A program made the translations under genes and the position numbers. This document shows positions 1,955-60,239 of a stretch of 64,000 nucleotides of DNA, one piece after another. This DNA is from Amaurobius ferox (Eukaryota > Arthropoda > Arachnida > Araneae > Amaurobiidae): positions 8,728,149 to 8,792,148 of the forward strand of contig OX578142.1 of NCBI GenBank assembly GCA_951213105.1. Reading direction: 5' to 3'. Within the stretch, counting starts at the first letter, position 1. Every line of letters starts with the position of its first letter. The notes under the pieces are model-generated. The model was not told where the DNA came from. It saw nothing but the letters and a program-made list of their open reading frames with translations, and searched no databases.

Positions 1955-2512
1955 TACAAACTCTTTTTTTATACGGTAGATATGTTTCTCAGAAATTCGT
2001 GTAAAAGAAGATAAGTTTCCTATAGTAAAAATTGGGATATGTTCCATATTATCCGAAAACCATGTGAGATGAAATAAAGAACTATATTTAGTTTAAAAAC
2101 CGTTTAAGAAAATGCTGAAAACCGTAAAATTCTGATATGCATGCAAATGATATATACATACATATGCAATTTTATTGAGCAATAAACTTAAAATACATAA
2201 TTCATAGGTAAAAATAAGTAACGCAAATAATTAAATTTTTAATTTAACTTCTAAAGAAATGGCTTGCCTTTTATGAATCTTTGAAACTTTCGACATTTTG
2301 TTAAATGTTATCTAGGGTAAAAATTTTATCTAGATAAAAATACCTTTTTTCACTTCTTAAGGTCAGAAATGTTCAAATACACAATTGATAGCACTATGTA
2401 TGGCTGATAACACGAACAATTGATTAAATATTGTGAGCTAATAAACTTAAAAAATTTAATGATGCAATATCTTATGTAAATGTCATACGAAATGAGTATA
2501 TAAGAGTTATTG
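1955..2512. other. AT-rich intergenic stretch
   Basis: No coding frame, splice-like exon or repeat end was recognised here. Confidence 0.4.
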
Positions 2513-2598
2513 AATAAGGGGATGCCCCAGTAGTTACTGGGGAATCCCTTTAATAAAGGGAGATCCCTTCGAATAAGGGGATTGGGAATCCCCTTATT
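2513..2598. repeat. Cluster of three short GC-rich hairpins
   Basis: Three adjacent inverted repeats: CCCCAGTA at 2525-2532 with 2535-2542; TCCCTTT at 2545-2551 with 2555-2561; and AATAAGGGGATT at 2572-2583 with 2587-2598. The AATAAGGGGAT block at 2513-2523 repeats at 2572-2582, so an alternative larger pairing is possible. A minus-strand open frame over this block is only a shadow of the repeats. Confidence 0.8.
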
Positions 2599-2832
2599 TG
2601 ATAACATTATAGCAGTGTGCAGTGCTGCCTAATTTTTGAAATGTGGTAAAAACGTGAATTTTTTTATACATTGGTACCAAAGACTGCAATTTATACTAGA
2701 CTGCTCATGGTCACGTACATAAGTATAAGACAATGACTTTGAAATCGTGTTAGATCAAATAAATTTTTCAAAAAAGGAAGACTTTTTTGAACCGTTGTAA
2801 CTTCAAATTCGTGTAAAAAAAGAGTTGGGTGT
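2599..2832. other. Spacer before the long-TIR element
   Basis: AT-rich sequence without a recognised feature. Confidence 0.35.
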
Positions 2833-2834
2833 AT

Positions 2835-3019
2835 ACCGGGTGGTCAGAATTAAAACACCCCTACTCTGAGCTCTCTATACATCAAACTACTCAGTGTAAA
2901 GGCTCCAAAATTGTTGAACCTACTATTCAAGACATGGGGGAAAGGGATTACTCGAAAAAAAAATTAGTTCCAGAAACACCGATAGGTGACGCTGTACAAC
3001 AGAAAATATGCTGAAAAGA
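2835..3019 (+). repeat. Left terminal inverted repeat
   Basis: Pairs with 4387-4571 over its full length. It contains the ACACCGATAGGTG block near its inner end. Confidence 0.85.
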
Positions 3020-3082
3020 CACAAAATACACATTTGTAACACATTTTATTTGAACGTACCAAACATTCATATCACAAGGACC

Positions 3083-4156
3083 TTATCGATGTAGGGAATG
3101 GACAGCTTGTTCGACTGCGGATCGTAATTGGTCGATTGAGATGCTTCTCACATGCAGAGTGATACTGTCTTTCAAATCTGCCAAGGTTACTAGACGTCCT
3201 CGATAAACAAGACTATTTAAGTTTAGACCCCACACAGCCAAAAATCACAGGGATTAAGATCTGGAGAACGAGGTGGCCAGGTTGTCGGAAACGCACGACT
3301 AATTACTCTACCATTAGTAAAATGTTGCCGAAGAAACTGCTGTACACAGAGTCCAATATGTGGAGGCGCTCCATCTTGCACACATAAAGGTAATTGAATC
3401 AAGACATTGGTGCTGTTGCAGTTGGGGTACAACAAAATTTTTGAGCATGTTTTTGTACCTCCTGGCCGTCACGGTGCAAGTCACAGGGCCATTAGGAGTA
3501 GCCTCTTCGAAAAAGAAAGGTCCAAGAATGAATGTGGTTGTGAATCCACACCAGACTGTAACTTTCGGTGAGTGAAGTGGAATCTCTTGGAAGGTACGAG
3601 GGTTTTCCGTGTCTCAAATGCGACAGTTATGGGTATTGACTGTTCCATTTAGATGGAAATGCGCTTCATCGCTCCATAGAATCTGCCATGGCAACAATGC
3701 ATCCACTTCAACTCTAGCCAGAAATGTCAATACAAAGGTCAGTTGCTTCTCCCTGTCGATGGTCAGCAAGTGGTGATTGTGACTAATTTTGTATGGGAAA
3801 AACTGCACTATGTTTCTCAGTGCGTTCCGCACTGTGCTATAGGGAACACCCAAGTGTCGTGACACTCCACGTGCACTACTACAGCCTATAACGTTATCCA
3901 TTGATTGTTCAACAATAGCAGTGGCAGCATCGTTAACGACATCTGAACGAGTCAATTTGCGTCCTCAACCCGGCTGAACTCCAAGATGTCCAGTTTTCTT
4001 GAATCGAGCGATCATTCTCCTGAGAGCTTGTGGAAGTAATGGTCCTTTGCGCAAATTCTTAAGTCGGCGAAACTCTCGAAGTGCAGCTGCAGCATGTCCT
4101 TTGTTTTCATAAAACAGCTTCACAAGCAAAGCGCGTTCTGGCAGTGTGACAGCCAT
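3083..4156 (-). pseudogene. DUF4817-type mariner-like transposase, broken
   Basis: The start codon at 4156 opens MAVTLPERALLVKLFYENKG, an N-terminal helix-turn-helix of the DUF4817 type. A frameshift or stop near 3965 is followed by a second helix-turn-helix (GVSRHLGVPYSTVRNAL) and the first catalytic motif ILWSDEAHFHLNG. Further frameshifts between 3614 and 3435 lead to CVQDGAPPHI and SPDLNPCDFWLCG. The second and third aspartates have 37 residues between them. The reading ends at TAA 3083-3085. Total length matches a transposase of about 350 residues. It is flanked directly by the long terminal repeats. Confidence 0.88.
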
Positions 4157-4386
4157 CGCTGATAAGAATGAAAATTTCCTATTTTTATCCCCTTTTATGC
4201 CCAGAATATAGTAGCTGCAAACCAAGGGTTTATGCAAATTTTTATGCTTACAGTGCAAAATTGCAGTTACAATGACAGTTTAAGTTTCTTCACTTTATCT
4301 TCTTTTTTTTTCATATCAGCAAAAGAAATTAAAAAGGAAAAATTCCATATCCCATGTGTTTTTTTTTTTTTTTGTAATTATTTTAT

Positions 4387-4571
4387 GTCGTTTCAGCATA
4401 TTTTCTGTTGTACAGCGCCACCTATCGGTGTTTCATGAACTAATTTTTTTTTTCGCGTAATCCCTTTCCCCATGTCTTGAGTAGTAGGTTCAACAATTTT
4501 GGAGCCTTTACACCGAGTAGTTCAATGTATAGAGAGCTCAGAGTAGGGGTATTTTAATTCTGATTACCCTG
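4387..4571 (-). repeat. Right terminal inverted repeat
   Basis: Reverse complement of 2835-3019. Minor differences include a longer poly-T run. Confidence 0.85.
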
Positions 4572-4573
4572 TA

Positions 4574-6599
4574 TATATTTCAGAAAGAATGTGAATTAAG
4601 TAAAAACAACAAAAATACTTAACATATACCACAGGCATTTAAATGCTCATGTAATGAAATATTTTCTTTTTCAAATTAAAAGTGGTAATAAAAATAATGA
4701 AAATAGTAAAAAAATAGTAAAAATATTAGAAATATTACATAATTCCATATATTAATTTATTTACATCACTCATGGTGTACCTACAAATAATCTTTTAATG
4801 TTGTTTTCTTTGTCAGTTTTAGTATTACATTTTAAAATTACTTCACAAGGCATAAAATAAATTATAGTCACAACCACTTCTCTCAAAGTGGTGATGAATA
4901 ACAGTTAAACATTTATGTACATCTATCAGGAAAAGATAGTATTTTTCCATGATACATTTTTTAAATTTCATGATATATTTAAATTTTAAGTATATTTAAA
5001 TTTTATGCAACATTCAACCGAAGGTCAAACTAGAATAGCCTCAGCTGCTAAAGAGCCTGCCAAAAGCAAAAGCTCCTGTTCCCCCCATGCCCTAATGTCA
5101 TTAGACAATGGAAGTAGCCAATTATACCTGGCCAGGAATGTGGCATATCAATAACCTAGTCAAAGTAAACGAAAATAAATACAAAATAAAAAAAAACAGT
5201 CTAATCAGCCAACATGATCGTGAACAGGCCGTCTGGATCCTCTCTGCTCCATTTATCTGAAATTCTTACCTGAGATTACGCAACTTATAATTTATTTATA
5301 ATCAACAAATAAATACTTCAATTTTGGGGATACCATAATTAATTTTTATTACAACAATAAATCATTATTCCTTAATATAAAATGCCTTTTGGGCTATCAT
5401 TCAAGGTTACTTCTCATTGTATTGAGCTTTTAATCCATCAATCAATGTATTATTATAAATATGCTTAACACTTTTACCTTGACAACACCATAGAAATTAT
5501 TATAGGATTTTGTTAGACACATTGCTTTAGCACATTTTTTTTTAAATAAAAAGCTTCCTTAAAACCATATAAATTTATTTATCAAAATTCATCAACCTTC
5601 ATATTCTTCTCCTCTATGTAACAAAATCATAATCATATCCCAATTTTATATTCATAACCACTCATAATATTTATTCAATCTCAAATTATCGTTCCTATGT
5701 CCTTCCTCATGTGACATTAACTTATATTTGTGTTAATTAACTTCAATCTAACTAGGTCATGTTATTTATTCTAAATTGCAGGATGCATTTATAGTGTCCT
5801 CATTAAGCACTGTGGCTTTTATTTTACTTATCTAGTGTGTCCTAGTCAGAGGTAAATGCATAAAGCAAAAGGAAAGCACCTGTTTCTCTTGCTTGATAAA
5901 TAAATGTTATGCTAAAAATTAAAATCAATCAATACTTTTAAGTTTATAGTATTAAAATCAATCTAAGAGTGAAATCAGTGTAAATATTATGCCGAATTTT
6001 CCTAATCATAATTTTCTACGATTTTTGACCTTTGTCAGGAATTTTACATGGGATGAGACTAGCTCGCATCAGCGGTGGAAAACATAATGTTTCAAGTGCC
6101 CAAATTCAAACTTATACAAAATTCAATACTTTATGCATTTTCATTAATTATCTTCAATCAAACTCAAATAATAATAAAAAAAAATCATATTCGTGTGTTT
6201 GTGTCTAAAATATGCAAAATTCAAATCTTAATTCAAATATCACCAACATTCATCTCCAATTAAATTCTTCAGGTGTGTCGTGTTTTAATTAGCTTATTAT
6301 CAAAATGTACTTTTTTGTTATTTTGTGCATTCCTAATTTTTGTGTCATATTAATTTAAGCAAAAGATAAAATTCAGTATTCTGTTATCAAACCTTTAAAT
6401 TATCAATTTTTTAAATTGCTGTGAACACATATATAAAATAACAAAAAAACATATATCAACAATTTCATAAATTTACGAAAATCATTCTAGAGTATTAGTA
6501 TATTATAATTTTTAGATTACATGTATATATAATTCAACTTAGATATACTTTTCAACATTAATGTACATCACTATCACAAAATCACTCACGAAACACTGT
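4574..6599. other. Unassigned AT-rich region
   Basis: No convincing coding exon, transposon end or tandem array was seen over about 2 kb. A slightly GC-richer patch at 5035-5260 has no recognisable protein on either strand. Confidence 0.4.
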
Positions 6600-12766: not shown

Positions 12767-14018
12767 TTAAGTTATCGATCTATAGCACTCACACGCTGTG
12801 TATGCAAACTACTTGAAAAAATGGTGAATGCTAGAGACTTGTGTATTTTTTAGAAAGTAATAAAATATTATCGCCACATCAAAGTGGCTTTCAACAAGGT
12901 AGATCTACTATCGACAATCTTATTGCATTAGAATCACAAATTAGTACTTCCTTTCTTAGGCGAAAACCATTTAGTCTTAATATTTTTTTATATAGACAAA
13001 GCCTATGATTGAACATGGCACTATGGTATTATTAAGGACCTTTTTGATTCTAATTTAAAGGGTAATCTTCCCATTTTTATTTGAAATTTTTTAGATTACA
13101 GGACATTCCAAGTTCGCATTGGTTCAATTCTCTCACACACATATATACAAGAAGAGGGAGTGTACTGTACCACAAGGATGTGTACTGAGTGTGACATTTT
13201 TTAATATCAAAATCAACAGTATTTTAAACCAATTACCATTGTCAGTTCATAAAACCATGTATGTTGATGATCTGCAGGTTTCCTACCAAGCACATGATAT
13301 GCTTTCAGTTGAACAACATTGTCAAGCTGCTGTTAATATCTTGTGATGGATAAATGTAAATGGATTCGGTTTTTCCACTCAAAAGACATGTTGTATTCAC
13401 TTCACAAGAAAACATAGTATTCACTTACCTCAGAAATCTTAATGGGGGACGTTAAGATCACAGTAATAGACGAAGTAAAGCTTCTCAGGGTCTGGTTTAA
13501 TAAGAAGCTCACTTTCTTGCCCCACATACATAAACTGCTAAAGAAATGTGAGAAAGCTCTGAACATCCTGAAAGTCCTTTCAAATACCAAATGGGGGGCA
13601 AATCGTACTTCCATGCTTCGTATCTACTGAGCGTACCTTATTCGTTCAAAGTTTGAATATGTATGTTCTGTGTATGAATCAGCATGAGCATTTGTACTTA
13701 AAGCTTGATCCAATCCATAATAATGCTCTTTGTATTTGTCCTGGTGCCTTTAGAACGTCTCCTATTCAGAGCATATACGTTGACTGTAATGAGACATCTC
13801 TCAAACTTAGGCGAGAACAGCTCTCACTTAATTATCATTTCAGAGTCATGTCCATGAACTACCATCCTTTGAAACATATCATTCTGGATGTGCAGTATGA
13901 TCGATTGTATTCAACCCGACCCTCCTGTATTCCTTCCTTTGGCATGCAAATATGTAATAGTATAGCATCAACTATACTAGAAAATCTTAATATCAGGAAG
14001 AGATAGTCTTGTTGTTGA

Positions 14019-14295
14019 GACCCAGACTGTCCAACCTACCAGAAAGGTGTAAGGTAACTGTTTGGATGGTCGGGAAGTGTCATCCAATTTAGACCGGAAC
14101 CCAGTGGGGGTGGCATCCACAGGGACTGTATCCTCCTTCCCCTACCACCAACCTCTTTGAAGGACTTACGGACCCACATGTTTAACGTGATTGTACTCCG
14201 CATGAACACTGCGGCAGTTTGGGCTGCAGCGAGAATCGAACCCGGGCCTACTGAATGCAATTCCCGCACGCTAACCACTGGACTACCGTGCCCCT
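14019..14295 (-). mobile_element. tRNA-derived SINE inserted in LINE-1
   Basis: On the minus strand the 5' end reads GGGGCACGGTAGTCCAGTGG (A-box region) and later GGCCCGGGTTCGATTC (B-box), the tRNA-like promoter pair of a Pol III SINE. The body runs to a 3' end of GTCTGGGTCTCAACAACAAG. It closely matches the SINE at 58033-58319. Short imperfect direct repeats (AAGAGATAGT / AAAGAGTAGT) flank it as a likely target duplication. Confidence 0.85.
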
Positions 14296-20712: not shown

Positions 20713-21560
20713 CACTAGAACGACAAAAGCGGTCATTTTGACCGCATAACTACTTTGAGAAACGATTCCTCCAAAGTGGCTAATCCCAGCCCATTGAAAT
20801 TTTATAACTTTTCTTATTTTCTTAAAGTTATTGAAAACTCAGAAGAAAATTATTCTAGGTTTTATAATGAGAGAACAAATCAACGATCTTCCTAGAATGA
20901 CGGCAGTGGTCAAAATGACCGCTAGAGAGATTTCACACAATGATGCAATCCAACTGCAGCGTTGCGCTACTGCAAGCCTTAGGAATGATTGCATCAGCTT
21001 TTTAGCATTATTTGGCATGTTTCAAGAAAGAACGACAACTGTGCCCATGCTGGATGTAAATTATTGCATGAAATTTTGGCACAATGTCTCGTGGGAAGCG
21101 ACTGACTACTGATGAGTGTCTAGCACTTTTGCAGCAACTTAGTGAGAATTTCAGTGATAACGGCGGCGATAGTTATGCAGATTTTGTAGTTTCTGATGAA
21201 AATGAAATTACAGAGCACAGCGTCAGCTCCTCAGAGGAGCAAGCAGACTCTGGCGGTAACAATACATCCAATTCAACTCGCCTTCAATGTAATACCTCTA
21301 CTTCAGCAAATCTTCATGTCAAAGATGGTACTGAGTGGAAAATATTGGATCGAAGCACCACTATTTGTGTTTATCATGCGATAAGCCCACCTGTGGAAAA
21401 TGCCAAGAACGCTTATTGCAAAAAATGTGTTGAAGAAGCATCTTAAATGCTGTAACTATAATGTTTTGGTTTTGAATTAACGATATGTTGTATTTTTTCT
21501 GTGACGGTCAAACTGACCACTGCCCGTCGTTCTAGGTTCAAAATATCCATCATTCTAGTG
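20713..21560 (+). mobile_element. Miniature piggyBac element with residual gene
   Basis: The left end CACTAGAACGAC at 20713 follows TTAA (20709-20712). The right end, read inward, is CACTAGAATGAT and is followed by TTGA (21561-21564). Internal copies of a palindrome-like GCGGTCAAAATGACCGC motif lie near both ends (about 20729, 20904 and 21503). The element is 848 bp and carries only the N- and C-terminal parts of a piggyBac transposase. Confidence 0.75.
21084..21446 (+). pseudogene. piggyBac transposase, internally deleted
   Basis: The 120-codon frame begins MSRGKRLTTDECLALLQQLS and continues with an acidic/serine region (DFVVSDENE...SSSEEQ), the form of piggyBac-family N-termini. After about residue 75 it changes to ICVYHAISPPVENAKNAYCKKCVEEAS, which matches the cysteine-rich C-terminal domain decoded at 44640-45070. 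The whole DDD catalytic domain is missing. Internal deletion joined the two ends into one open frame, so a small DNA-binding fusion protein could in theory still be made. Confidence 0.75.
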
Positions 21561-44502: not shown

Positions 44503-45300
44503 TTGCATTTAAATTTACATCTTTTGAATTTTAATTATAATTTAACATTTGTTTCATCCTTTAGTTTAAATAAAAACAGAAATCCTAATAACTTTAGTTT
44601 TACACAAGAATGACGGGCAGCGGTCAATTTGACCACAGAAAAAATACAACATACTTTTAATTCAAAACCAAAATATCATAGTTACAGCATTTAGGATGTT
44701 CCTTCGACACATTTTTTGCAATAAGCATTCTTGATGCACCATTCTTGGCATTTTCCACAAGTGGGCTTATCGCATGATGAACACTTTTAAATTTACATCT
44801 TTTAAATTTTAATTATAATTTAACATTTGTTTCATCCTTTAGTTTAAATAAAAACAGAAATCCTAATAACTTTAGTTTTACACTAGAATGACGGGCAGCA
44901 GTCAATTTGATCACCATAGAAAAAATACAACATACTTTTAATTCAAAATCAAAATAACATAGTTACAGCATTTAGGATGTTTCTTCGACACATTTTTTGC
45001 AATAAGCATTCTTGATGCACCATTCTTGGCATTTTCCACAAGTGGCCTTATCGCATGATGAACACAAATCTAGTGTTTTATTACGGCAGAACGGGCACTG
45101 ATGACGTTTGTTACTTTTCGCTACCTTTCAACAAAGGAGGACTGCTGGACTCTGCTTGGTCACACAGTACGCAGATCACAGTTTGTTCACAAGATTCTGG
45201 ATGCTGCTTAGTCGCACAGTACGCCGATCACAGTTTTGGCGATCGCATCGTATTGAGGTGGCTCATTTGGTCTAGAACATTCATGCCACACTTTAAGGAA
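44503..45300 (-). pseudogene. piggyBac C-terminal end, tandemly duplicated
   Basis: A unit of about 278 bp occurs twice (about 44503-44785 and 44781-45070). Each holds a piggyBac right end (CACTAGAATGACGGGCAG or variant) and, on the minus strand, the last codons of a Cys-rich domain: CGKCQEWCIKNAYCKKCVEG. It matches the C-terminus of the miniature element at 20713-21560. Further coding-like sequence to 45300 (minus) is broken; it has a 55-bp internal repeat (GTCGCACAGTACGCCGATCA). Confidence 0.75.
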
Positions 45301-46089: not shown

Positions 46090-46189
46090 TCATAAAATTA
46101 TTTGAAATTTACTTTATTAACAATTGTTTATTTCATTAGCAAAATAGTTTCAATCAGTTCATCAACAAAATAAGATCAATCAGTTTATT

Positions 46190-46770
46190 TCTACAATAGA
46201 TAAGGGGCAAAAACTTGACCAAATGCAATGTAAAATGAAATATTCGACACTAAGAAAGAAATTTAAACAAATAAAGTGTTTATTTTTGTTCTAAATACCA
46301 GATCTTGTAAAGAAAAGCACACTCCCAAAATACTTTGAAAATGTTTCTTTTTGTAGGCAAAAAAATCCTCCTAGTTTTCCAGATGAAATCAGGATTATAG
46401 TTCTCTGTCACAGCACAAGTAAAAACATTCCAATCCCATTTGTTTATTAACAATGAACAACATATTGAATAAAAAAAAATATGTTCAATAGTTTATATCT
46501 AGGATTGACTCGGGGTCAAAACCATGACTGAATGCGATTGAGAACGAATTATTTGACAATAAAAGAAAAAAAAATATTAAAAAAATGAAGTACATAATTT
46601 TGTTCTGCATACCAGATCTTGCAAAGTAATGCAACCTCCCAAAATACTTCTTGAAAAATTTGTATTTGCTGCCCTTTGACAAAAAATCATCATAGTTTTC
46701 AGATAAAATCAAAAATTTAGTTCTGTGTTGAGGGAAAAATAAAAAAATTCCAATCCCATTTATATGTCAA
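46190..46770. repeat. Diverged ~310-bp dimeric repeat
   Basis: The block TACCAGATCTTGTAAAGAAA at 46297 recurs as TACCAGATCTTGCAAAGTAA at 46608, with flanking similarity through CCAATCCCATTT. The second unit has a 75-codon minus frame, but it is not recognisable. The same dimer is in the right copy at 53460-54030. Confidence 0.65.
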
Positions 46771-46872
46771 GGCACAGGTGCCTCAAGATCATACCTCTGC
46801 CACATATGTGTTTGTCGGGTATATAAAACTTCTCTCTATTCTATTATTGGATTTCCATATTATATTTTTATT

Positions 46873-46879
<7 letters not shown>

Positions 46880-46907
<28 letters not shown>

Positions 46908-46908
46908 T
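46880..46908. repeat. (TA)n(CA)n microsatellite
   Basis: Simple repeat directly before the MITE; length differs in the right copy (54143-54174). Confidence 0.9.
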
Positions 46909-47479
46909 GGTTTTCAAGACTAATGCAACAAACTTTCAAGGATGATAGAACACACTGAAACAAACACTTTTCAGCATAGATTGCATAGTTGCAAGTGAAG
47001 CGGTTATGCTCTAGAGGGCGCTTTCAAGCTAGAGGGCTCTTTCGGGCACACATATAAAAGTGAGGGTTTTCGCATGTAGGTAATTAGCAACTTGGAATGG
47101 TTCGGTATACTAATGTAGAGAAGGCGGACATGCATTTTGTCTATGGTCTCGCCAAGGTAATGGCAGGAAAGCGCAAAGGCTTTACCGAGGGTGCTTCTCC
47201 AACAGGTGTATACCTGATCATGGAATGTTTTCACACTTGCATTGCCGACTGTCTGAAAAGGGATCCTACAGTGCTGTCGTGCATTTGTTTTGTTGTTTCG
47301 TGTCAGTCCTGTTTTTGCATTGCGTATGGCTGTGTGTGTGTGTGGAGAAATGGAAACCGCCCTCTAGCACTTAACCGCTTCACTTGTGACCATGCATTCT
47401 ATGATGAAAAGTGTTTGTTTTGGTGTGTTCTATCATCCCTAAAAGTCTGTTGCATTAGTTTTGAAATACCCTTTGTATA
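46903..47479 (+). mobile_element. MITE with ~105-bp TIRs and DUF4817 remnant
   Basis: The left end TTTTCAAGACTAATGCAACA and the right end (inverted) TTTCAAAACTAATGCAACAG open inverted repeats of about 105 bp, running to AAGTGAAGCGGTTA. Inside, MVRYTNVEKADMHFVYGLA, shifting frame into PDHGMFSHLH, is the N-terminal DUF4817 helix-turn-helix of a mariner-like transposase. The catalytic part is deleted. The 142-codon frame at 47097-47525 is therefore not a gene. Confidence 0.75.
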
Positions 47480-47481
47480 TA

Positions 47482-47897
47482 CACTGAGCCAAATCAGTAT
47501 GACCACCCCCACCGTGTACGAATAGGCTTGTCTGGATGATGTGAAGGGCACGTGAGCAGGCGGGAATGGTATTTAATGGCTGCTGGTGATTCTGAGGCAT
47601 AATTCTATCGCTTCCGTGTGTGTGTGATGGGTAAGGCTGCTGATATAAGTGAATTCGATCGAGGGTAGATCATGATGGCCTGATGGCTCAGAACGAGTAT
47701 TTCCGAAACTGCATGGCTCATCGGGTGTTCGCGAGCTGTCGTAGTTAGGACCAATGCAAAGTGAATGAATGACGGTGAAACCAGTAGTAGGCGGCAAGAC
47801 GTTGGATGTCCACGTGTCATCAATGAAACTAGACATTGGAGGCTGTCCCGCTTGGTGAAACAAAATCGGCGACAACCAGTTGCTCAACTGACAGCCG
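47482..47897 (+). mobile_element. 5' fragment of a Tc1-like transposon
   Basis: CACTGAGCCAAATCAGTATG is the terminal repeat found at 57891. The fragment matches the first part of the complete copy and ends at the LINE-2 junction. Minus-strand frames at 47573-47944 are shadows. Confidence 0.85.
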
Positions 47898-48029
47898 CTT
47901 GAATGAATGATATGAAGGTGGGTGGCTCCAGAAGAGCCCAGCACATCGACCAGAGGTCTATTGTACTACCCCGAAAGAGAAAGATCTCTAAGAAAAGAGA
48001 CCAGTAGCCAATGCAAAAATAAGCAGGCA

Positions 48030-48259
48030 CTTGACAGGAATGTCATTCAGCTCCCAGGGTTCAATCACATGACAACCAATGTGTTCGAATCTGTGAGCAG
48101 AGTAAGCCTCACATTCACAGAGAATGTGAGCAGCAGTTTCTTCGCTTGACAGGAATGTCATTCAGCTCCCAGGGTTCAATCACATGGACCACCAATGTGT
48201 TCGAATCTGTGAGCAGAGTAAGCCTCACATTCACAGAGAATGTGAGCAGCAGTTTGTTC
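48030..48259 (-). repeat. 115-bp tandem duplication at LINE-2 ORF2 end
   Basis: CTTGACAGGAATGTCATTCA starts at 48030 and again at 48145; the two 115-bp units are nearly identical. It duplicates the coding sequence for the last residues (HILCECEAYSAHRFEHI) with part of the 3' UTR. Confidence 0.9.
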
Positions 48260-51200
48260 GCTGTAATTGCAGCCTCTGCAAAGCGAATCTTTAGTGATAC
48301 CCTTAATGTTAAGGTGTCTCTTGAGGGTGCAGTGCCCAGTAAGGAGCCCAACAGCCCTCCTGATGCCAGTTCTACTGAGCTTGAAAAGTTCTTTTTGACG
48401 TGTACTAGGGCAATTGCAGTTGAGAATTTTCGCTTGCCTTTGTCCCTTAGTATTACGCCAGTTCTTACATTGAAGCTTCCTGAAGATGTCATAGACAGTT
48501 CTTCTAACAAGGTCATTGGGGATTCCCAAGGCTGGCTCAGGGCCCACAAAAGGAGTATTTGCGCCTTTCCTAGCAAGTTCATCAGCCAACTCATTGCCAG
48601 GAATGCCCGAATGACCTGGCACCCAGTAAAGAATGACATTGTTATTGCTAACAATTTCACAGAGTGCATTTAACATTCCCAAACAAAGGCAGACGTCATA
48701 GTGAACTTCCCAAGAGCCATTAGAGCAGCCTGACTGTCAGAACAGATGAAAATCTGGCTATTCTTATACTTCCTGTCATAACAGATACTACAACACATGA
48801 GGATGGCAAAGACTTTAGCCTGAAAGACAGTAGCAAAATTGCCAAGCGGATGAGACAGCTCAGTACTATCATCAGGGCAACAAACACCAGTACCAGTGCT
48901 TGTGCCAATCTTCGAGCCATCCGTGTACCATACAAAACAGTTCCGTTTTTTGTAGGTGGGAGTCCTCTTCCAGTCGTCCCGCGAGGGGACTTGAATTTCA
49001 TAAGGCTTATCAAACGTATATTTGACATGAATGCCATCAGGTGGCATACGGAAATAAGGATGACTAGCAACATTACTGTTAAGTTCACCCCAAGGTAGAT
49101 AGATACCTTGAGTAATCTTTCCAGTATTTCAGATATTTAAGTCTGTTCATGCAGATAAGTGCTTCTGCTTCAATACGCATGTAGAGCGGATGCAAACCGA
49201 GTAAAAGTTCAAGAGTTGCAGTAGGAGTAGTTTTCATGCATCCAGAGATTGCAATGCACACCATCCTTTGAAGCTTAACTAGTTCTAGTCTAGCTGTTTC
49301 ACATCCAATTATGGACCACCAAACAATGGATCCATAGGATATGATAGGACAGATTACCATCGAGTAAATCCAATGGATAGCTTTAGGATTAAAGCCCCAG
49401 GTTTTCCCAATGGCATTCCTACAAGACCAGAAGATTCTTCTGGCTTTAGTCGTGCAATAATCCAAGTGTCTCTTCCAGTTGAGTCCCTTGTCAAAGTAAA
49501 TTCCCAAGAATTTAACCTCCTTGGAGCAAATAAGCGTCTGCCCAAACAAGCGAATGTCCCCAAGATTAAGTATGCGTTTCCTAGTAAACGCAACCAAAGC
49601 AGTCTTATGCGGATTAACAGTAAGACCTGTATTTTTGCACCATGTCTCAACCCTCCTAAGAGCAGTGGACATCATGTCAGAGACAGTGTTGCCAAATTTG
49701 CCCCTGGCAATGATGACAACATCGTCTGCATAACCAACGCAGGAAGCACCAGAAACATTGATACTCTCCAAAAGAGAGTCCACAACTGTACACCAAAGAA
49801 TTGGCAAAAGCACACCTCCTTGTGGACAGCCCGAAAGTGCATGCACAGTCATACTATCACCAAGTAAAGATGCACATATATACCTATTAGATAACAGGTT
49901 CTTGATCCAATAAGAGATCGTGATATCAACACCTTTTCTATCAAGAGCATCAAGGATGGTGTCGATGGGTACCTTATCAAAGGCACCTTCAATGTCGAGA
50001 AAGGTGGCAAGAGCAACTTCCCTGGCATTGAAGTTTCTCTCCAAAATAAAGGAGAGACTGTAAAGGATAGTGTCCGTAGATTTGCATGGTTGATAGGCAT
50101 GTTGAGAACTTGACAAGGGCTTAGAAGCCAGGATCACTTCTCTTAAGTACCTATCAATAAGCTTCTCAATGGTCTTTAAAAGAAAAGACGTAAGGCTAAT
50201 AGGCCTAAAGGATTTGGCCTCGTAATAATTATCCTTTCCAATCTTTGGAATGAAGATTACTTTAGTATGCCTCCATGCATTTGGTACGTGACCTAAGGCA
50301 ATACAGGCTCTGTAGATACTGCAGGAATGGGAGCTAGCACCTCAATTCCCTCCTGGAGAAGAATTGGAATGTCCGGAGTCCATCAGTCCCCAGAGTTTTA
50401 TAGGATTTATGGGAATTAATTGCCTATTTAACCCTATCAAGAGTAACAATGCTCCTGGCAATGCTCCAACTTTTGTCATCAGAAGAAGACGTGGAGCAGG
50501 CAATAACATTGTCACAATGATCATAAGGATAAGAAACTTGAAAGTGGACCCTGAACAGCTCAGTCAGGGTCTCTTCACCAGTAACAGTAAAGTCACCATT
50601 TGACTTCTTGACAATATTCAAATTACAATTTCTGTCCCTTGCCTTCAGCTTAACAAGTTTTGCCGTGGCAGGGGCATCTTTGATACCTTCGCAGTACATT
50701 CTCCAAGAATTTCTCTTGGAGTCCCTGACTGCCTTATTATAGGAGGTAAGAGCAGATTTATAAACCTGCCCATTCACCATTCTTTTTATCTATTAAAGAG
50801 CTTCCTGCATTTCCCACGCAACTGGCTGAGCTCATTAGACCACCAAGGAACAATCCTTGGGGAGTAGGCATTTGTGGTTCTGCAGTTACTATGGAAAGTT
50901 TGGATAATGGCCTATTGCAATGAGTCAACAGCCAAATCCAGGTTTTCAATAGAAAAATACTCACCATTATGGCTAGCCAACCTGGCACCCTGAGATCATC
51001 TTTGTAGGAACCCCAATTAGTTCTTCTAGGGTTCCTACCCTTATCAGTTGCAGGTTTTACAGGACCTTTAACAGAAAAAGAGATTAATTGATGGTCAGAA
51101 AGAGATATATCATTTAAGACCTTCCAATTTATCATATAGTCATAAGCATTACTATTGCTTAAGCTGATGTCTATCACTTTGTGACGCTTTGCAGTCATGA

Positions 51201-51746
51201 AGGTAGGAGAATTACCCTTATTAAGTACAAAGAGATTGAAGAGAAGAATCTGTTCTAAAAGATCATCACCCCTACGGTTGCAATCACTACTGCCCCAAAC
51301 AGTGTTATGGGCATTCGCATCACAACCAATAATCATTTTTTGCCATTACAATACACAAAAAGATTGATAATGACATTAGAAAGGGTTTCCTTCTCTTCAT
51401 AAGGAAGATAGGCCGAAGCAAAGATGTATTCTATCATATGCTCATTAGTTTTAAGATTTACACTGATGGCAACATTGTCACCATCGAGGAATTTAACAAG
51501 ATGAACAGCATTGAGCTTGTTGCTAACAGCAATACAGGCTCTAGGTCTGATACAGGATGTATCATAAAAGACATTGAATCCCTTGATCCCCAGACCCAAA
51601 ATTTTTCCATTGCAGGTCCAGGGTTCCTGGATGAGAGCAATATCAGCTCTACCATTTAACAGCCTTTTGCTAAGAATAGCAGAGGCAGAACGACTGTGAT
51701 GCAAATTTATTTGCACAACATTAAAACAGCCCATAAACAGGGACAA
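48176..51746 (-). pseudogene. LINE-2 ORF2: endonuclease, RT, RNase H
   Basis: The EEP endonuclease starts FNVVQINLHHSRSASAILSK, with DIALIQEPW, IIGCDANAHNTVWGSSDCN and SLSDHQLISF (51746-51080). RT is clearest in the 350-codon frame 50137-49085: LSSSQHAYQPCKSTDTILYS, FLDIEGAFDKV, LSGCPQGGVLLPILW and the catalytic VGYADDVVIIARG at about 49733-49715. RNase H follows as CFVWYTDGSKIGTSTGTGV, CSDSQAALMAL and LYWVPGHSGIPGNELADELA. The C-terminus has a CRGCNYSEQTAAHILCECEA zinc motif and ends at a stop at 48176-48178. Five or so frameshifts separate the pieces. Catalytic residues are mostly intact, so decay is moderate. Confidence 0.9.
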
Positions 51747-51764
51747 AAAGAGGGCAGAGAAAAC

Positions 51765-52980
51765 CTAGGAGAGAGAGGCCCTCCTAGTAACATGACAATG
51801 ATCAGCGTCAAGCACATTTTCATTGTCAAAATCCTGCATGCGTTTTTCCAGCTCATCATCAGAAATCAGAGGTTTAGCATGTAGTGTAACATCAGAACCA
51901 GAAGCAATTTCTAGATCATTAAGTTTAGGTATCATAGTCTCAAGACTACAGATACTTACCTGAGAGGAGGTCGCCTGATCTTTTGGCTGTTCCTCCATCT
52001 CCCAACTTCCCTTTGGGCTTCTCATTTGGTTCCCGAAGAATCTTAAAGACTCTGCGGTCCAAACCGGTGAAAGCACCAAGGTCAGCTTTGCCAATCGCAT
52101 CCGCAGCCTCCGAATCCCCCTCGAAGATCCATCTTACGGAGAGGGGTTCCACAAAATTTTGCAGAACACGCCACTCCTCAGACTTCAACTCCAGGTTGAA
52201 ACGGTTCAGCCATTTCTGCAAAATGCTCGGCTCCTTGGTGTAAACATCTCTGGTCTTAAAGGCCACCTTGACAGGTTTGGGAAGGGCATTGGCACTCAAG
52301 AATTTAAGTGCCTCCCCCAGAACCTGACTGTTATTATGGAAGGTTTTCTTAACCCATTCCACAGTATTTGCATCATTGCACTGAAGAACCAAGGTTCCAG
52401 CGTTTAAACTGCAGCCATGAATCTTTGGAAGTTGCTCACTAGTGGGGGTCTCATCTATCTTATCGAGAGTCACCACCTGGATGATGTCAACCTCTTCCTT
52501 GCTCAGCTTACTTGAAGGGAAGGGATTCTTGACAATTGCCATCTTGATAACCTGGACTGCCTGAGCATATGTTCCAGGTTGGATGTCTGTCCTTGATCTT
52601 TTCTTAACGACCAGATCTCTTGGAGAAGGTGTGGCTCCTTCCGACCTAAGTCGTTTGGTGCCTCCAATCTTCTCTTAGACAGCGCTAACTTTTGCAAGCC
52701 TCTGATCCAGCTCCCTAGGCATGCGCCTCCTCCTGCGCCTCTGTGCTTTAGTGAGTATATCCTGTGTCACAGCCATGGTTACAGTGTGTTGGTCACCAAG
52801 GCTCGCGACTCCACTTCCTTCCACAGCCGGACTGCAGGTTTCCTCCTTTTTGCCAAGATCCAACCCCAGAGGGGTTGTTTCAATGGCTGATTGGGAATCA
52901 CCCGAAGATGAACCCAATCCTTTAACACTTTCTTTATGACAGCACGGAGAACTAGGGAATGGTACATCTAATTGCTCCAT
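51765..52980 (-). pseudogene. LINE-2 ORF1, DUF4780-like
   Basis: ATG at 52980 opens MEQLDVPFPSSPCCHKESVK. A basic patch KAQRRRRRRMPRELDQRL precedes a single in-frame stop (52675-52677). The same frame continues with RSRTDIQPGTYAQAVQVIKM and a domain resembling DUF4780 (SLNAGTLVLQCNDANTVEWV, VKVAFKTRDVYTKEPSILQK), typical of ORF1 in LOA/R1-type LINEs. It ends near 51946; a shifted tail (ISDDELEKRMQDFDNENV) runs to 51765. No zinc knuckle is present, unlike LINE-1 ORF1. Confidence 0.82.
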
Positions 52981-53358
52981 GATGTAACCACTAAAGAGAA
53001 AAACCACGGATTACTTCCAGTTTGATCGGAGCCCCCGCTAGGCTCCGTCTCCCCCACACTTTTCTGACGTGACAAGTGTAACCGCCAGAGTCATTCGCAA
53101 AGCTAGATGATAAGGAGCGGGCCATAATGTGCACCAGGTACACAGGACCCAAAGATCAACAAGGATCCAAGGGGGATTTCTTGATATGAAACACTCCCCA
53201 CCATCCAACCAACGCAACCAAGGGACTCGACCTCTGGAACCATTTACTACAAACGTTTCTTGAAAGCAAAACTACAGATGCACGCCGCTTTGCCCTTTTC
53301 GCAACACAACCACCTGGTCCCGTTCTCGAGCCCAAAAGGAATACCTTACGGCAGAGGG
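52981..53358 (-). promoter_or_regulatory. LINE-2 5' UTR (shared with LINE-1)
   Basis: Homologous to 9073-9415 over its length. On the minus strand it starts GACCCTCTGCCGTAAG and ends just before the ORF1 ATG at GTGGTTACATC. It likely includes the internal promoter; this is inference. Confidence 0.75.
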
Positions 53359-54143
53359 TCATAAAATTATTTGAAATTTACTTAATTAACAATTGTTTAT
53401 TTCATTAGCAAAATAGTTTCAATCGGTTCATAAACAAAATAGGATCAATCAGTTTATTTCTACAATAGATAAGGGACAAAAACTTGACCAAATGCAATGT
53501 AAAATGAAATATTTGACACTAAGAAAAAAAATTTAAACAAATAAAGTGTTTATTTTTGTTCTAAATACCAGATCTTGTAAAGAAAAGCACATTCCCAAAA
53601 CACTTTGAAAATGTTTCTTTTTGTATGCAAAAAAATCCTCCTAGTTTTCCAGATAAAATCAAGATTATAGTTCTCTGTCACAGCACAAATAAAAACATTC
53701 CAATCCCATTTGTTTATTAACGATGAACAACATATTGAATAAAAAAAAATATGTTCAAGAGTTTATATCTAGGATTGACTCGGGGTCAAAACCCTGACTG
53801 AATGCGATTGAGAACGAATTATTTGACAATAAAAGAAAAAAAAAATATTAAAAAAATGAAGTACATAATTTTGTTCTGCATTCCAGATCTTGCAAAGTAA
53901 TGCAACCTCCCAAAATACTTCTTGAAAAATTTGTATTTGCTGCCCTTTGACAAAAAATCATCGTAGTTTTCAGATAAAATCAAGAATTTAGTTCTCTGTT
54001 GAGGGAAAAATAAAAAAATTCCAATCCCATTTATATGTCAAGGCACAGGTGCCTCAAGATCATACCTCTGCCACATATGTGTTTGTCGGGTATATACAAC
54101 TTCTCTCTATTCTATTATTGGATTTGCATATTATATTTTTATT

Positions 54144-54175
<32 letters not shown>

Positions 54176-54613
54176 GGTTTTCAAGACCAATGCAATAAAC
54201 TTTCAACAGGGTTCGTACGCCTCCTGGAAATCCTTGAAAACTCCTGGATTTTCCGATTTTTATATAAGGGCCCTTGAAAACTCCTTATTTTTTTTATTTT
54301 AGCTCTAAACTCCTTGAAATCGTAAAATACTCCTGGAAAATTGACGTTTTCACTTTTATTTCTCAATATAATCAATAGGTGGCGCCACCAAAATAACGAT
54401 ATTTCGAATTAGCGTTGGAAATCTCTCATCTTTACAACACTGTCTTATAATTCTTCATTCTTGTCATAGGTGGCGCCACCGAAGTAACGGAAAACGTTAG
54501 AATCATTTCGTTTCTTTGTCGTTGTAGTTGTATAGGTATACTACCTTGGTTTAGAAATTTTGTTGAAGCTGACACAAAGCCTTTGTTTTTTATACTTATA
54601 TTTTCCCTCAAAA

Positions 54614-56988
54614 ATGCCTGGAGGAAAGTGTGTATTCAATGATAATTGGTTGGAAATGGATGACTACAGAGAATGGTTACTGAAAACTTCATCGCGGGAT
54701 AAAGCCGAATGCTGTTGGTGCAAGAAAAAAATCGATGTTTCTAACATGGGTGAAGCAGCATTGAAGTGCCATATAAAAGGAAAGAAACTTCAAAGTTTTG
54801 GCTGAAAAATCGAAAAACATTTCTTTGAAAGACTATTTTTCATCACCCTATCCTAGTACCTCTAGAATTGCAAGTGATCCAGATGAGCAAATCCAAAGTA
54901 TTGCTCCACGTGTTCTGAAGGCTTCGGAAACTTTAGATAATTCTCTCACCACCAGTGATCACTTAAAAGCTGAAATATTATGGACACTTAAGGTTCAAAG
55001 CAGCCGTTATTCATATAAATCTTGTGAAAATACAAATGTCATATTTCGACGCATGTTTCCAGATAGTGAGATCGCCCAGAAGTTCACTTGTGGAGAAAAG
55101 AAATGCGCATATTTGTCTGTATTTGGGATTGCACCATATTTTGCTACATGTCTGAAACAAAAAGTGAAAAATGAAAGTGGATTTGTTCTTTTATTTGATG
55201 AAAGTATGAATAATTATATGCAAACTAAGCAATTAGATTGCCATGTTCGATTTTGGGATCATAATCACGTGGTATCACGATATTATTCTTCAGATTTTTT
55301 GGGTCATGCAACAGCAGACATACTTTTTGAAAATATTAATGAAAAGTGTGCAGAGCTGGGGTCATGCAATTTACTGCAATTATCAATGGACGGACCAAAT
55401 GTTAATTGGAAAGTATTTGATTTAATGTATGAGCATTTAAAACAAGAAGGTAGTTCTAACTTATTAAATATAGGTAGTTGTGGTATACATATTATGCACA
55501 ATTCTTTTAGTTTAGGATGTACTGTATTTCCTGAAATTGAACAAATGGCAAGTGCACTATATCGCCTTTTTAAAGATTCTCCAGCTCGGCGAGAGGATTT
55601 TGCTTCAATTAGTGAAAATCCAAAATTCCCCATAAAATTTTGCAAGAATCGATGGGTAGAAAATTCAAGTGTATTTAACAGATTATTAGAAATTCTTCCT
55701 CAAGTTAAAATTTATGTGTCCAAAGTAATTAATAAGAATTTCACTAATCCCGGAAACAAAAGTTTTGAAACAATTCAAACTAGTGTTAACGATAAGTTAT
55801 TTATTATAAAATGTAATTTTCTTATTTTTATTGTGAAGGAAATAGAACCTTTTATGACTTCATATCAAACTGATAAACCAATGTTGCCTTTTATGGCATA
55901 TGACCTATATAATTTGATCAAAAATTTAATGCTAAAATTTATGAAAGAAGAACAAGTTCCAGCTTCTATGATAAAGCTTCTAAGTATTGATGTGGAGGAT
56001 TCATCTTTGCATAAAGATGCAAGCAAAATTGATGTTGGATTCATTGCCAAAAAAATTATAAAAGACGTTGTTAAAAAGAAATCTGCTAATGTTGAGAAAC
56101 AGTTAATGGAATTTTATATTAACTGTAGGGCATTTTTGATCAAAATGGTTAAAAAGTTATTAGAGAGATGTCCTTTAAAGTACAATCTTGTAAGGAACAT
56201 GTCATGTTTAGATCCTCGTACTTTAATTGACGATAAAAAAATAAATATGACAAAAATCAATAATATCCTTATAGCCCTTACAGATTGTGGTAAGATAAAA
56301 GATACTAATTGTGATACTATAATTAAAGAATATAAGAGTTTTGTTGAGGATTTCAGTATTATGGATATAGGAAAGCGATTTAAACACTGTTGCCAAGACT
56401 CTTTTAATCCATTAACTGATAATGTTGATACATTTTTTTTTGAGCACCTTTCAAATAACTCAAAGTATTCTAATTTGTGGGTAGTGATAAAAAAGTTATT
56501 ACTTCTTTCTCATGGACAAGCTACTGTAGAGAGAGGTTTTTCCATAAACAAAAATGTAATGGTTGAAAATTTAAAAAAAGAGTCTCTTGTTGCTAAGCGG
56601 ATCATTGAAGATCACATTCGAAATATAGGTGGGCTTGAAAATATTGTGATTACAAAAGAACTTCTATTGTCTGGAGCAGGAGCTCGTCAGAAGTATTTGT
56701 TATATTTAGATGAACAAAAACAAGTACAGCCTGTCTCGACTGATAAAAAGAGAAAATTACTTGGAACAGATTGAAGAGCTAAAAAGAAAGAAAATTTGTA
56801 CAGAAAATGACATGGCTGAACTTACCAAATCATCTATAGATTATGCAGATAGGGCAGAAAAATCCTGTCAAATAACATTCATTGCCAAATCAAATGCCTG
56901 CCGACGCAGTGCACAGGATAAACAAATATTGCTACAGGATATTAAATGTGAATTAGATGCAAAATGCTTAGAGCTAAAAAATTGTTGA
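54614..56988 (+). pseudogene. hAT transposase, BED finger plus coiled-coil tail
   Basis: MPGGKCVFNDNWLEMDDYRE starts at 54614 and has a BED-type finger (CCWCKKK...CHIKGKK); the final histidine appears to be lost. A one-base shift near 54795 moves the reading into the 658-codon frame ending 56774. That frame includes FDESMNNYMQTKQLDCHVRF, LLQLSMDGPNVNWKVFDLMY, GSCGIHIMHNSFSLG, FCKNRWVENSSVFNRLLEIL and the C-terminal hAT dimerisation motif LLLLSHGQATVERGFSINKN. A second shift near 56750 leads to a coiled-coil tail (YLEQIEELKRKKICTENDMA ... IAKSNACRRSAQDK) ending at TGA 56986-56988. The central frame is completely open, so inactivation was recent. Confidence 0.9.
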
Positions 56989-57360
56989 TTTTTTCAGTAC
57001 AAAATAATTTAATTTTGTTTACATAAATATTTATACATTAGTGATATTTAATAAATTATGAAGTATATTCTTACTATATTTTTTATTTTTTTGTACATGT
57101 GTGTTGCAATGTAATTTTTGTGATTTCTTCAAATAATGATTAAATCTACCTATTCTTCAGATAGTGATATAGCTGGTAGTATGTTTGTAAGCACAAATGC
57201 AAAAGATCTGATGATAGAACGAATCATATTCAGAATCGTAGTTTTGTTTTTGTTTTGCTGTAAAAAGGAAATAAAAAACTCCTGGAAAAATGCGCAAACC
57301 CTCCTGGAAAACTCCTTAAAACTCCTGGAAATAGGTTCCTGCAAAAGAGTATGAACCCTG
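56989..57360 (+). other. hAT 3' UTR and subterminal repeats
   Basis: AT-rich 3' region followed by CTCCTGGAAAA-type repeats at 57280-57330 and the terminal repeat. Frames at 57136-57354 are by-products. Confidence 0.7.
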
Positions 57361-58032
57361 TTTCAAGGATGATAGAACACACCGAAACAAACACTTTTCA
57401 GCATAGATTGCATAGTTGCAAGTGAAGCGGTTATGCTCTAGAGGGCTCTTTCGTGCACACGTATAAAAGTGAGGGTTTTCGCATGTAGGTCATTAGCAAC
57501 TTGGAATGGTTCGGTATACTAATGTGGAGAAGGCGGACATGCATTTTGTCTATGGTCTCGCCAAGGTAATGGCAGGAAAGCGCAAAGGCTTTACCGAGGG
57601 TGCTTCTCCAACAGGTGTATTCCTGATCATGGAATGTTTTCACACTTGCATCGCCAACTGTCTGAAAAGGGATCCTACAGTGCTGTCGTGCATTTGTTTT
57701 GATGTTTCGTGTCAGTCCTGTTTTTGCATTGCGTAAGGCTGTGTGTGTGTGTGGAGAAATGGAAAACTCCCTCTAGCACTTAACCGCTTCACTTGCGACC
57801 ATGCATTCTATGATGAAAAGTGTTTGTTTTGGTGTGTTCTATCATCCCTAAAAGTTTGTTGCATTAGTTTTGAAATACCCTGTGTATATACACTGAGCCA
57901 AATCAGTATGACCACCCCCACCGTGTACGAATAGGCTTGTCTGGATGATGTAAAGGGCACGTGAGCAGGCGGGAATGGTATTTAATGGCTGCTGGTGATT
58001 CTGAGGCATAATTCTATCGCTTCCGTGTGTGT

Positions 58033-58319
58033 TGTTGTTGTTGAGACCCAGACCGTCCGACCTACCAGAAAGGTGTAAGGTAACTGTTTGGACGGCCGGG
58101 AAGTGCCACCCAATTTAGACCGGAACCCAGTGGGGGAGGCATCCCCAAGGACTGTACCCTCCTTCCCCTACCTCAACCTCTCGGAAGGACTTACGGACCC
58201 ACATGTTTAACGTGATCGTACTCCACATGAACACGATGGCAGTTTTGGCAGCAGCTGGAATCGAACCCGGGCCTACCGAGTGAAACTCTAGCGCGCTAAC
58301 CAATGGGCTACCGCGCCCG
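58033..58319 (-). mobile_element. tRNA-derived SINE with 15-bp target duplication
   Basis: CGCTTCCGTGTGTGT at 58018-58032 and 58320-58334 flanks the insert perfectly. On the minus strand the head reads GCGGTAGCCCATTGGTTAGC and then GGCCCGGGTTCGATTCC (A and B boxes). The tail ends GGGTCTCAACAACAACAAC. It lies in the right repeat copy only. Minus frame 58115-58534 crosses it and is not a gene. Confidence 0.92.
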
Positions 58320-58336
58320 CGCTTCCGTGTGTGTGT

Positions 58337-59348
58337 GATGGGTAAGGCTGCTGATATAAGTGAATTCGATCGAGGGCAGATCATGATGGCCTGATGGCTC
58401 GAAACGAGTATTTCCGGAACTGCATGGCTCATCGGGTGTTCGCTAGCTGTCGTAGTTAGGATCAATGCAAAGTGAATGAATGATGGTGAAACCAGTAGTA
58501 GACGGCAAGACGTTGGACGTCCACGCGTCATCAATGAAACTAGACATTGGAGGCTGTTCTGCTTGGTGAAACAAAATCGGCAACAACCAGTCGCTCAACT
58601 GACAGCCGATTACAATACAGGTCCCAGTAGAAATGTTTCGGAGCACATATTTCAGCGGACTCTGATAGATATGGGACTCCACAGCAGACGGAGAACCAAG
58701 AGTCATCGCTATTTACGCCTCCAGTTGGCCCGGGAGCATCGTGACTGGACCATGGAACAATGGAGCAGAGTTGCCTGGTAGGAAGAATCACAATATCTGG
58801 TTCATCACGTCAAAGTATGCTATCTTCCATGTGAACAGTTCCTTGACACATGTACCGCGGGTTATAAACAGGTCGGAGGTGGCAGTATTATGGTTTGGGT
58901 GATGTTCTCATGGGCATCTCTGGGACCGTTGGTTGGGGTGGAACACACCATGAAAGCTGTGGACTATCTCAACATCATTGCTGACTAGTTGCACCCTTAC
59001 ATGGCGTCAGTCTTCCCCAACGAGAATGGAGACTTACAGCAGGAGACAACGCGCCCTGTCACAAAGCCAGAATTGTGCTACAGTGGTTCGAGGCACATGC
59101 GGATGAATTTCAGTTGATGTCCTGGCCACCTAACTCACCAGACTGTAATCCCATAGAGCACATTTGGGATGTCATGGAATGGCAGCTCAGAGCTCAAATA
59201 CCACTGCCCCGGAATATCCGGGAGTTATGAGACCGCTGCTTGCACACCTGGTACCATCTGTCTCTTGCCACCTATCAAAGACTTGTGGCATCCATGACAG
59301 AGCGGGTTGCAGCTGTTTTGCGTGCCAAAGGTGGAGCAACACGATATT
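58337..59348 (+). pseudogene. Tc1-like transposase, broken
   Basis: The N-terminal DNA-binding part includes DVGRPRVINETRHWRL and FQRTLIDMGLHSRRRT. It is followed by LAREHRDWTMEQWSRVAW at the start of the catalytic core, then in shifted frames YKQVGGGSIMVWVMFSWASL, VDYLNIIAD and LHPYMASVFPNENG. Where the second catalytic motif should read QDNAPCHT the frame is broken (QQETTRPV), and the following PNSPDLNPIEH-type region is in another frame. The gene is inactive. Confidence 0.85.
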
Positions 59349-59384
59349 AGGTAGGTGATCATAATGTTTTGGCTCTTCAGTGTA

Positions 59385-60239
59385 TATATATAATAATAGT
59401 TTGAAATTCCAATGATAGAATAGAGAGAAGCTGCAACTCAAAAATCCCAACTTTAAATAAAATCTACATAATAAAAAGAAATATTAAATAGCGAATCATC
59501 AAGCAAATGGAAAAAAATGCAAATTAAGAGTCATAAAGCCAAAAAAAATCAACAAACATCAAAGTTGTGGAATCGATAATAGAAAAACAAAAAAATTCCA
59601 AGCATCAATGCTATACACGTGGACAAAGCCTAGGCCTAATTAATTCAATTGTTCATTTTGAAAAAACTCTTCGTCGGGTCCAAGTATTTAATCAAAATGA
59701 ACACAAAATATGTATGTTTCTGAAGAAATAGATAGATTATATCTATAAACTATTTCTACTTGGACAATACACATAAAAATAGAACAATTTTAAAAGAAAC
59801 AAGAATACCTGGATGATAAAACACTGAAAATGTGCTAACCATAGGAGCTGAAAATGAAGAGACCAGTGTTGCCAATCGCATAGAGATCCACCGTTGCCAA
59901 TCATGTGAAACAAATAACGGTAATGTGAAAAGGCAATAAAAGGTGATATTCTACAATAAGAGCTACAAAATAATGGGGCATATAAACGAAAACAGAGAGA
60001 CTAATATAAAAGGGGATATAATTAAAATGTAATGATAAAACAAGAGAATGTTGATGTCTAGCTAATATAAGATACAAAGAAAAGAATTCATGGAAATTCA
60101 GCTAATCTAAACTAACAATACCATTAACTAAATATGCTGGATATTTGTATAATTTGCTGGTAATTTTTAGATTATTTATATTCATAGCATAAATTTTTTT
60201 ATCTAATAATCTATAAATTCTAAAAAGTTGATTATGGAT
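59385..60239. other. AT-rich region, no gene seen
   Basis: No coding motif or element end recognised in 850 bp. Confidence 0.4.

Follow-up and report, generated by a model that had tools for sequence, protein, structure and literature searches.

The 64,000-nucleotide stretch of Amaurobius ferox DNA analysed here, termed the window, contains a LINE flanked on both sides by copies of a single sequence, S, and raises the question of how a repeat of this length came to occupy the position of a target-site duplication (TSD). A preliminary description had proposed the order left flank-S-LINE-S-right flank, with S at about 1.8 kb, unique sequence on the left and a Tc1-like element continuing only on the right, and had read the arrangement as a giant TSD, its possible causes including a distant second nick, repair by copying from a template, unequal crossing-over and assembly error. 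This topology is borne out: the left copy of S (46090-47897) is 1808 bp in length, far above the usual LINE range of about 5-30 bp, and the LINE takes up all the space separating the two copies to within one base. The breakpoints had been placed exactly at the LINE ends. On the left this holds, the 3' tail of the element, (TTCA)n, beginning at 47898, flush with S at 47897/47898; on the right one extra base (53358) separates the 5' end of the LINE at 53357 from the restart of S at 53359. The direct repeats lie 0-1 base from the LINE on either side, as a TSD does.

The LINE (47898-53357, reverse strand) is 5'-truncated, as judged from other copies that reach about 350 bp further 5', and its reading frames are interrupted by stops and shifts. 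It bears an ORF1 with DUF4780 and Pfam matches, all above cut-offs, to an endonuclease (PF14529), a reverse transcriptase (RT; PF00078) and an RNase H (PF00075), the last restricted to profile positions 103-140 of 141, the frame being broken. The combination of APE-type endonuclease, RT and RNase H that marks the I group is present. LINEs of the L2 clade are not known to have an RNase H domain, and the match accordingly places this element outside that clade; the earlier label "LINE-2" was wrong as a clade name and is usable only for the second LINE of the window. From its domain content we regard the element as RNase H-bearing and I-group-like, the RNase H fitting that group. Among 120 RT relatives listed of 480, the animals named are arthropods, including the spider Parasteatoda (60% identity over 60% of the query), and three rows carry bacterial names. 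Near the 3' end of the element lies a 117-bp tandem duplication (48030-48262; 97.5% alike), the unit of which is single in all 19 other aligned copies.

Self-comparison of the window resolved S into three blocks in direct orientation: 46090-46939 with 53359-54206 (96.4%), 46934-47623 with 57361-58032 (95.1%), and 47609-47900 with 58320-58611 (94.9%). The right copy (53359-58608) is interrupted by two insertions that the left copy lacks and that postdate the duplication of S. One, of 3154 bp (54207-57360, forward strand), has inverted ends CAGGGTTC(G/A)TAC and a 6-bp duplication, TTTCAA; its 665-codon open frame has no Pfam match, and from its look we take it to be a hAT-type DNA transposon. 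The other (58033-58334) is SINE-like, its body extending to 58318 and being followed directly by the second copy of a 16-bp duplication, CGCTTCCGTGTGTGTG; a relative, 88% alike, occurs at 14009-14293. With both insertions set aside, alignment of the two copies, a comparison already suggested in the preliminary description, gave 55 substitutions in 1786 aligned bases (3.08%), spread over the whole length at 6 to 14 per 300-base bin in six bins. Chance similarity was dismissed for 1.8 kb at 97%. To the left of the repeat, 44508-45065 comprises a 280-bp tandem duplication (96% alike) with a reverse-strand relative at 21363-21535.

S is a composite of unrelated parts. Roughly its first 780-810 bp are specific to this locus; a MITE-like unit follows (about 46903-47476), and the last stretch (about 47476-47897) is the beginning of a Tc1-like element, the remainder of which forms the right flank (58609-59389, forward strand). 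The MITE-like unit has inverted ends of about 124 bp that are 85% alike. A search of the 3.56-Gb genome, in which 40 of 2296 candidates were scored, placed the entire S at two sites only, both in the window, and matched its first ~780 bases here only; among the matches listed, the MITE-like part had two other genomic places (79-80% alike) and the Tc1-like part further copies at 85-90%. The case that S as a whole occurs nowhere else is thus strong, though not absolute. In all 16 Tc1-like paralogs compared (L012-L028 except L019, which matches the MITE-like part) S and the right flank form one unbroken sequence, and similarity to the left copy is lost no more than about 10 bases from the LINE. 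The left boundary (46089/46090) lies, as had been claimed, in unique sequence; it has no paralog, and the comparison of uninterrupted sites pertains to the Tc1 side.

The preliminary description had further suggested a search for other copies of the LINE with long flanking repeats. A genome search for the family listed 40 copies among 3904 candidates, including that of the window, and 19 of the 39 others were examined in 10-kb stretches. Leaving out L036 (a duplicate of L034), L047 (3' end missing) and L032 (5' end outside the stretch) gave 16 scorable copies, a set that excludes the window copy, picked as it was for its repeat. Fourteen of the 16 have short TSDs of 11-15 bp: exact words of 12-14 bp common to both sides of three full-length copies (L030, L040, L046), 11-12 bp with one mismatch, judged by eye, in three more (L034, L043, L044, that of L044 being 11 bp with one mismatch), and exact words of 11-15 bp in eight truncated copies (L029, L033, L035, L037, L038, L039, L041, L045). 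Bases at the edges can be assigned to either TSD or element, and the real TSDs may be some bases shorter. The other two copies, both truncated, have TSDs above 100 bp: 784 bp in L031, with 15 substitutions in 783 (1.9%), and about 113 bp in L042, with one base of 113 differing (0.9%; a 126-base alignment overran this repeat at both ends, with 12 of 125 differing). Long TSDs recur in the family. They occur in two of ten truncated and none of six full-length copies, numbers too small to establish an association with 5' truncation. The 5' joints of the three long cases, all truncated, show one extra base (window), three bases of microhomology (L031) and six extra bases (L042).

A separate test, on the 20 copies outside the 10-kb set less the repetitive L054 and L057, used 3'-flank pieces of 390 bases, from which a TSD of at least about 130 bp would be detectable. 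A first batch of nine flanks all found their own places; with the queries of L055 and L056 too short, seven copies were testable, and none had a long partner repeat, so that long TSDs are a minority outcome. A second batch of nine flanks found its own places for eight, a dispersed repeat in L066 filling the match list. Two further features of the family emerged from these comparisons. L034 and L036 are the same insertion present twice on one contig (C2), about 670 kb apart, with compared 5' parts 99.7% alike over 1.57 kb, either a recent segmental duplication or an assembly duplicate; and L032 contains, at 2404-5866, a head-to-tail duplication of 1745 bp within the LINE itself, 97% alike, with directly adjoining units.

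L031 offers a view of both sides of the target. Its S belongs to a dispersed repeat with at least 65 matches (40 of 69 candidates scored); the two copies at L031 itself are 98% alike, and the best full-length relatives among the candidates scored are 92% alike. In both paralogous repeats compared, the two best relatives, a single S is joined to both outer flanks (over 150 bases at the 5' flank/S joint and about 60 bases at the S/3' flank joint), whereas the sequence on the LINE side matches these paralogs only in S plus the three bases of microhomology. The state with one S is thus the older arrangement at L031.

The ages of repeat and element could be compared as well. In the 3' part of the window LINE, private substitutions amount to 1.44%, from which 2.89% would be expected between S copies made at insertion; the corresponding tree branch, doubled, gives 4.5%. 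The observed 3.08% falls between these values, and the S pair and the LINE insertion are of one age. The copies of S at L031 (1.9% apart) and L042 (0.9%) lie below the 3.3% and 2.5% expected from twice their private substitutions, a shortfall that may reflect gene conversion or small numbers. At the inner edges of S we found no separate short TSD, the longest shared word being five bases in the window and four in L031.

Recurrence in L031 and L042, the uninterrupted paralogs, the agreeing ages and the lack of a separate short TSD together support a duplication made by insertion, and with it the earlier reading of a giant TSD: in all likelihood the LINE itself generated the duplication of S as it inserted, on the same or a sister chromatid. 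An I-group-like LINE would have entered the Tc1-like element by target-primed reverse transcription (TPRT), from a first nick that we infer at GCCG^ATTAC in the forward strand, a site now seen at 47897/47898 and at 58608/58609. Reverse transcription primed there would make the 3' end of the LINE, and the 5' end of the cDNA would then be attached to a break at a distance of 1808 bp, as against the usual distance of about 12 bp, leaving the DNA between the two breaks copied to either side of a 5'-truncated LINE. The second break was probably a nick made farther along the same chromatid, the long overhangs being filled in, and the class of long TSDs is most simply explained by second-strand joining at such a distal break; the repair route itself cannot be told from sequence.

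A route by way of the sister chromatid, which falls within insertion-made duplication and has odds overlapping with those of the explanation just given, would produce the same map: a cDNA begun at the S/right-flank nick and joined to the left-flank/S break of the sister would yield a tandem duplication with the LINE at its joint, a mechanism put forward for a tumour duplication of 22.6 Mb bridged by L1 (PMC7058536). Such joining should also give target-site deletions, yet a duplication is present in every one of the 16 scorable copies, which mildly disfavours it; the sizes of 113, 784 and 1808 bp resemble the tail of a distribution of nick distances, albeit in a sample of only 16 copies. We regard this route as unlikely.

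Far less probable is an older tandem S-S duplication into whose junction the LINE later landed. Local tandem duplications free of a LINE do exist (44508-45065; also at L029 and L032), yet this course requires an insertion flush within one base, here and again in L031. Normal entry into an existing S-S pair would moreover have left a TSD of about 12 bp between LINE and S, and its absence argues against an older duplication, as do a divergence of the S copies no higher than the age of the LINE predicts and the single S held between the same flanks by the two paralogs of L031. We consider it equally improbable that two haplotypes were erroneously joined at the LINE during assembly. The copies of S do show 3% divergence, with two insertions present in one of them, and it is the assembled sequence alone that was examined, but a join of haplotypes would not set both inner edges of S flush with the ends of the LINE, and the recurrence of the arrangement elsewhere in the genome (L031, L042), with uninterrupted paralogous sites, opposes this cause. 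That S is a terminal repeat, such as an LTR, of a composite retroelement, or a repeat family, has next to no probability despite the coding element lying between direct repeats, since S as a whole is locus-specific, consists of unrelated parts and ends inside a Tc1-like element whose paralogs run through the boundary, and is absent from the other LINE copies surveyed. It is thus very probable that the kilobase-scale TSD is genuine, a side effect that LINE insertion produces now and then, and not an assembly error.

A duplication arising from the insertion itself has precedents in experimental systems. In cultured cells deficient in nucleotide excision repair, TSDs of human L1 had a median of 1495 bp, and in HeLa cells those above 100 bp never exceeded 10% (PMC5223499). 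As reported in the available part of that study, these direct repeats, which range from 0.1 to several kb and are mostly short in normal cells and mostly long in repair-deficient ones, resemble those described here; they differ in stemming from an engineered L1 of another LINE clade in cell lines, whereas the present copies are inherited. HeLa data cited elsewhere give 10-17 bp for full-length L1 and sometimes extremely long TSDs for truncated L1 (PMC2912911, as excerpted), the same trend as in the present family. For ZfL2-2 in wild-type chicken DT40 cells, the accessible text records one TSD of 1228 bp in 25 insertions (PMC2666801), likewise a lone kilobase-scale case among mostly short target-site changes, albeit of an L2-clade LINE in an assay setting. 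The zebrafish I-group LINE Nimb-2_DR has TSDs of 10-15 bp as its norm, equal to the short class here (11-15 bp), and extra bases or microhomology at 95% of truncated inserts, the annealing type to which the 5' joints of our three long cases correspond; no kilobase-scale duplication like the present one is given for it in the sections available (PMC4245944). Nor is one described in the accessible portion of the SR3 paper, SR3 itself having TSDs of 10-12 bp (PMC1291365). The L1-bridged tumour duplication, as outlined in its available text, shares the direct duplication and the short LINE insertion at the joint and differs in being somatic and of megabase scale (PMC7058536). In the literature searched, chiefly openly accessible papers and mostly at the level of listings, we recognised no report of an inherited kilobase-scale TSD of an I-group LINE. 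Surveys can miss such cases by design: one of human and chimpanzee LINEs, in the part available, took TSDs of 5-30 bp only and urged work on longer ones (PMC2912911).

On this well-supported reading, the window contains a natural and inherited instance of something already seen in cell assays. Long TSDs offer a simple source of kilobase-scale duplications that can be mistaken for LTRs or for assembly errors. With its inherited cases, and a clear class of short TSDs accompanied by long outliers, this family makes it possible to measure, in a natural genome, how often the second strand is joined distally and whether this goes with 5' truncation. More tentatively, and we think it doubtful, the germ line may control the second nick only loosely, with an active I-group-like LINE steadily making segmental duplications of 0.1-2 kb that carry the LINE at their joint; if so, the genome would preserve, in inherited and legible form, a parallel to the L1 phenotype of repair-deficient cells.
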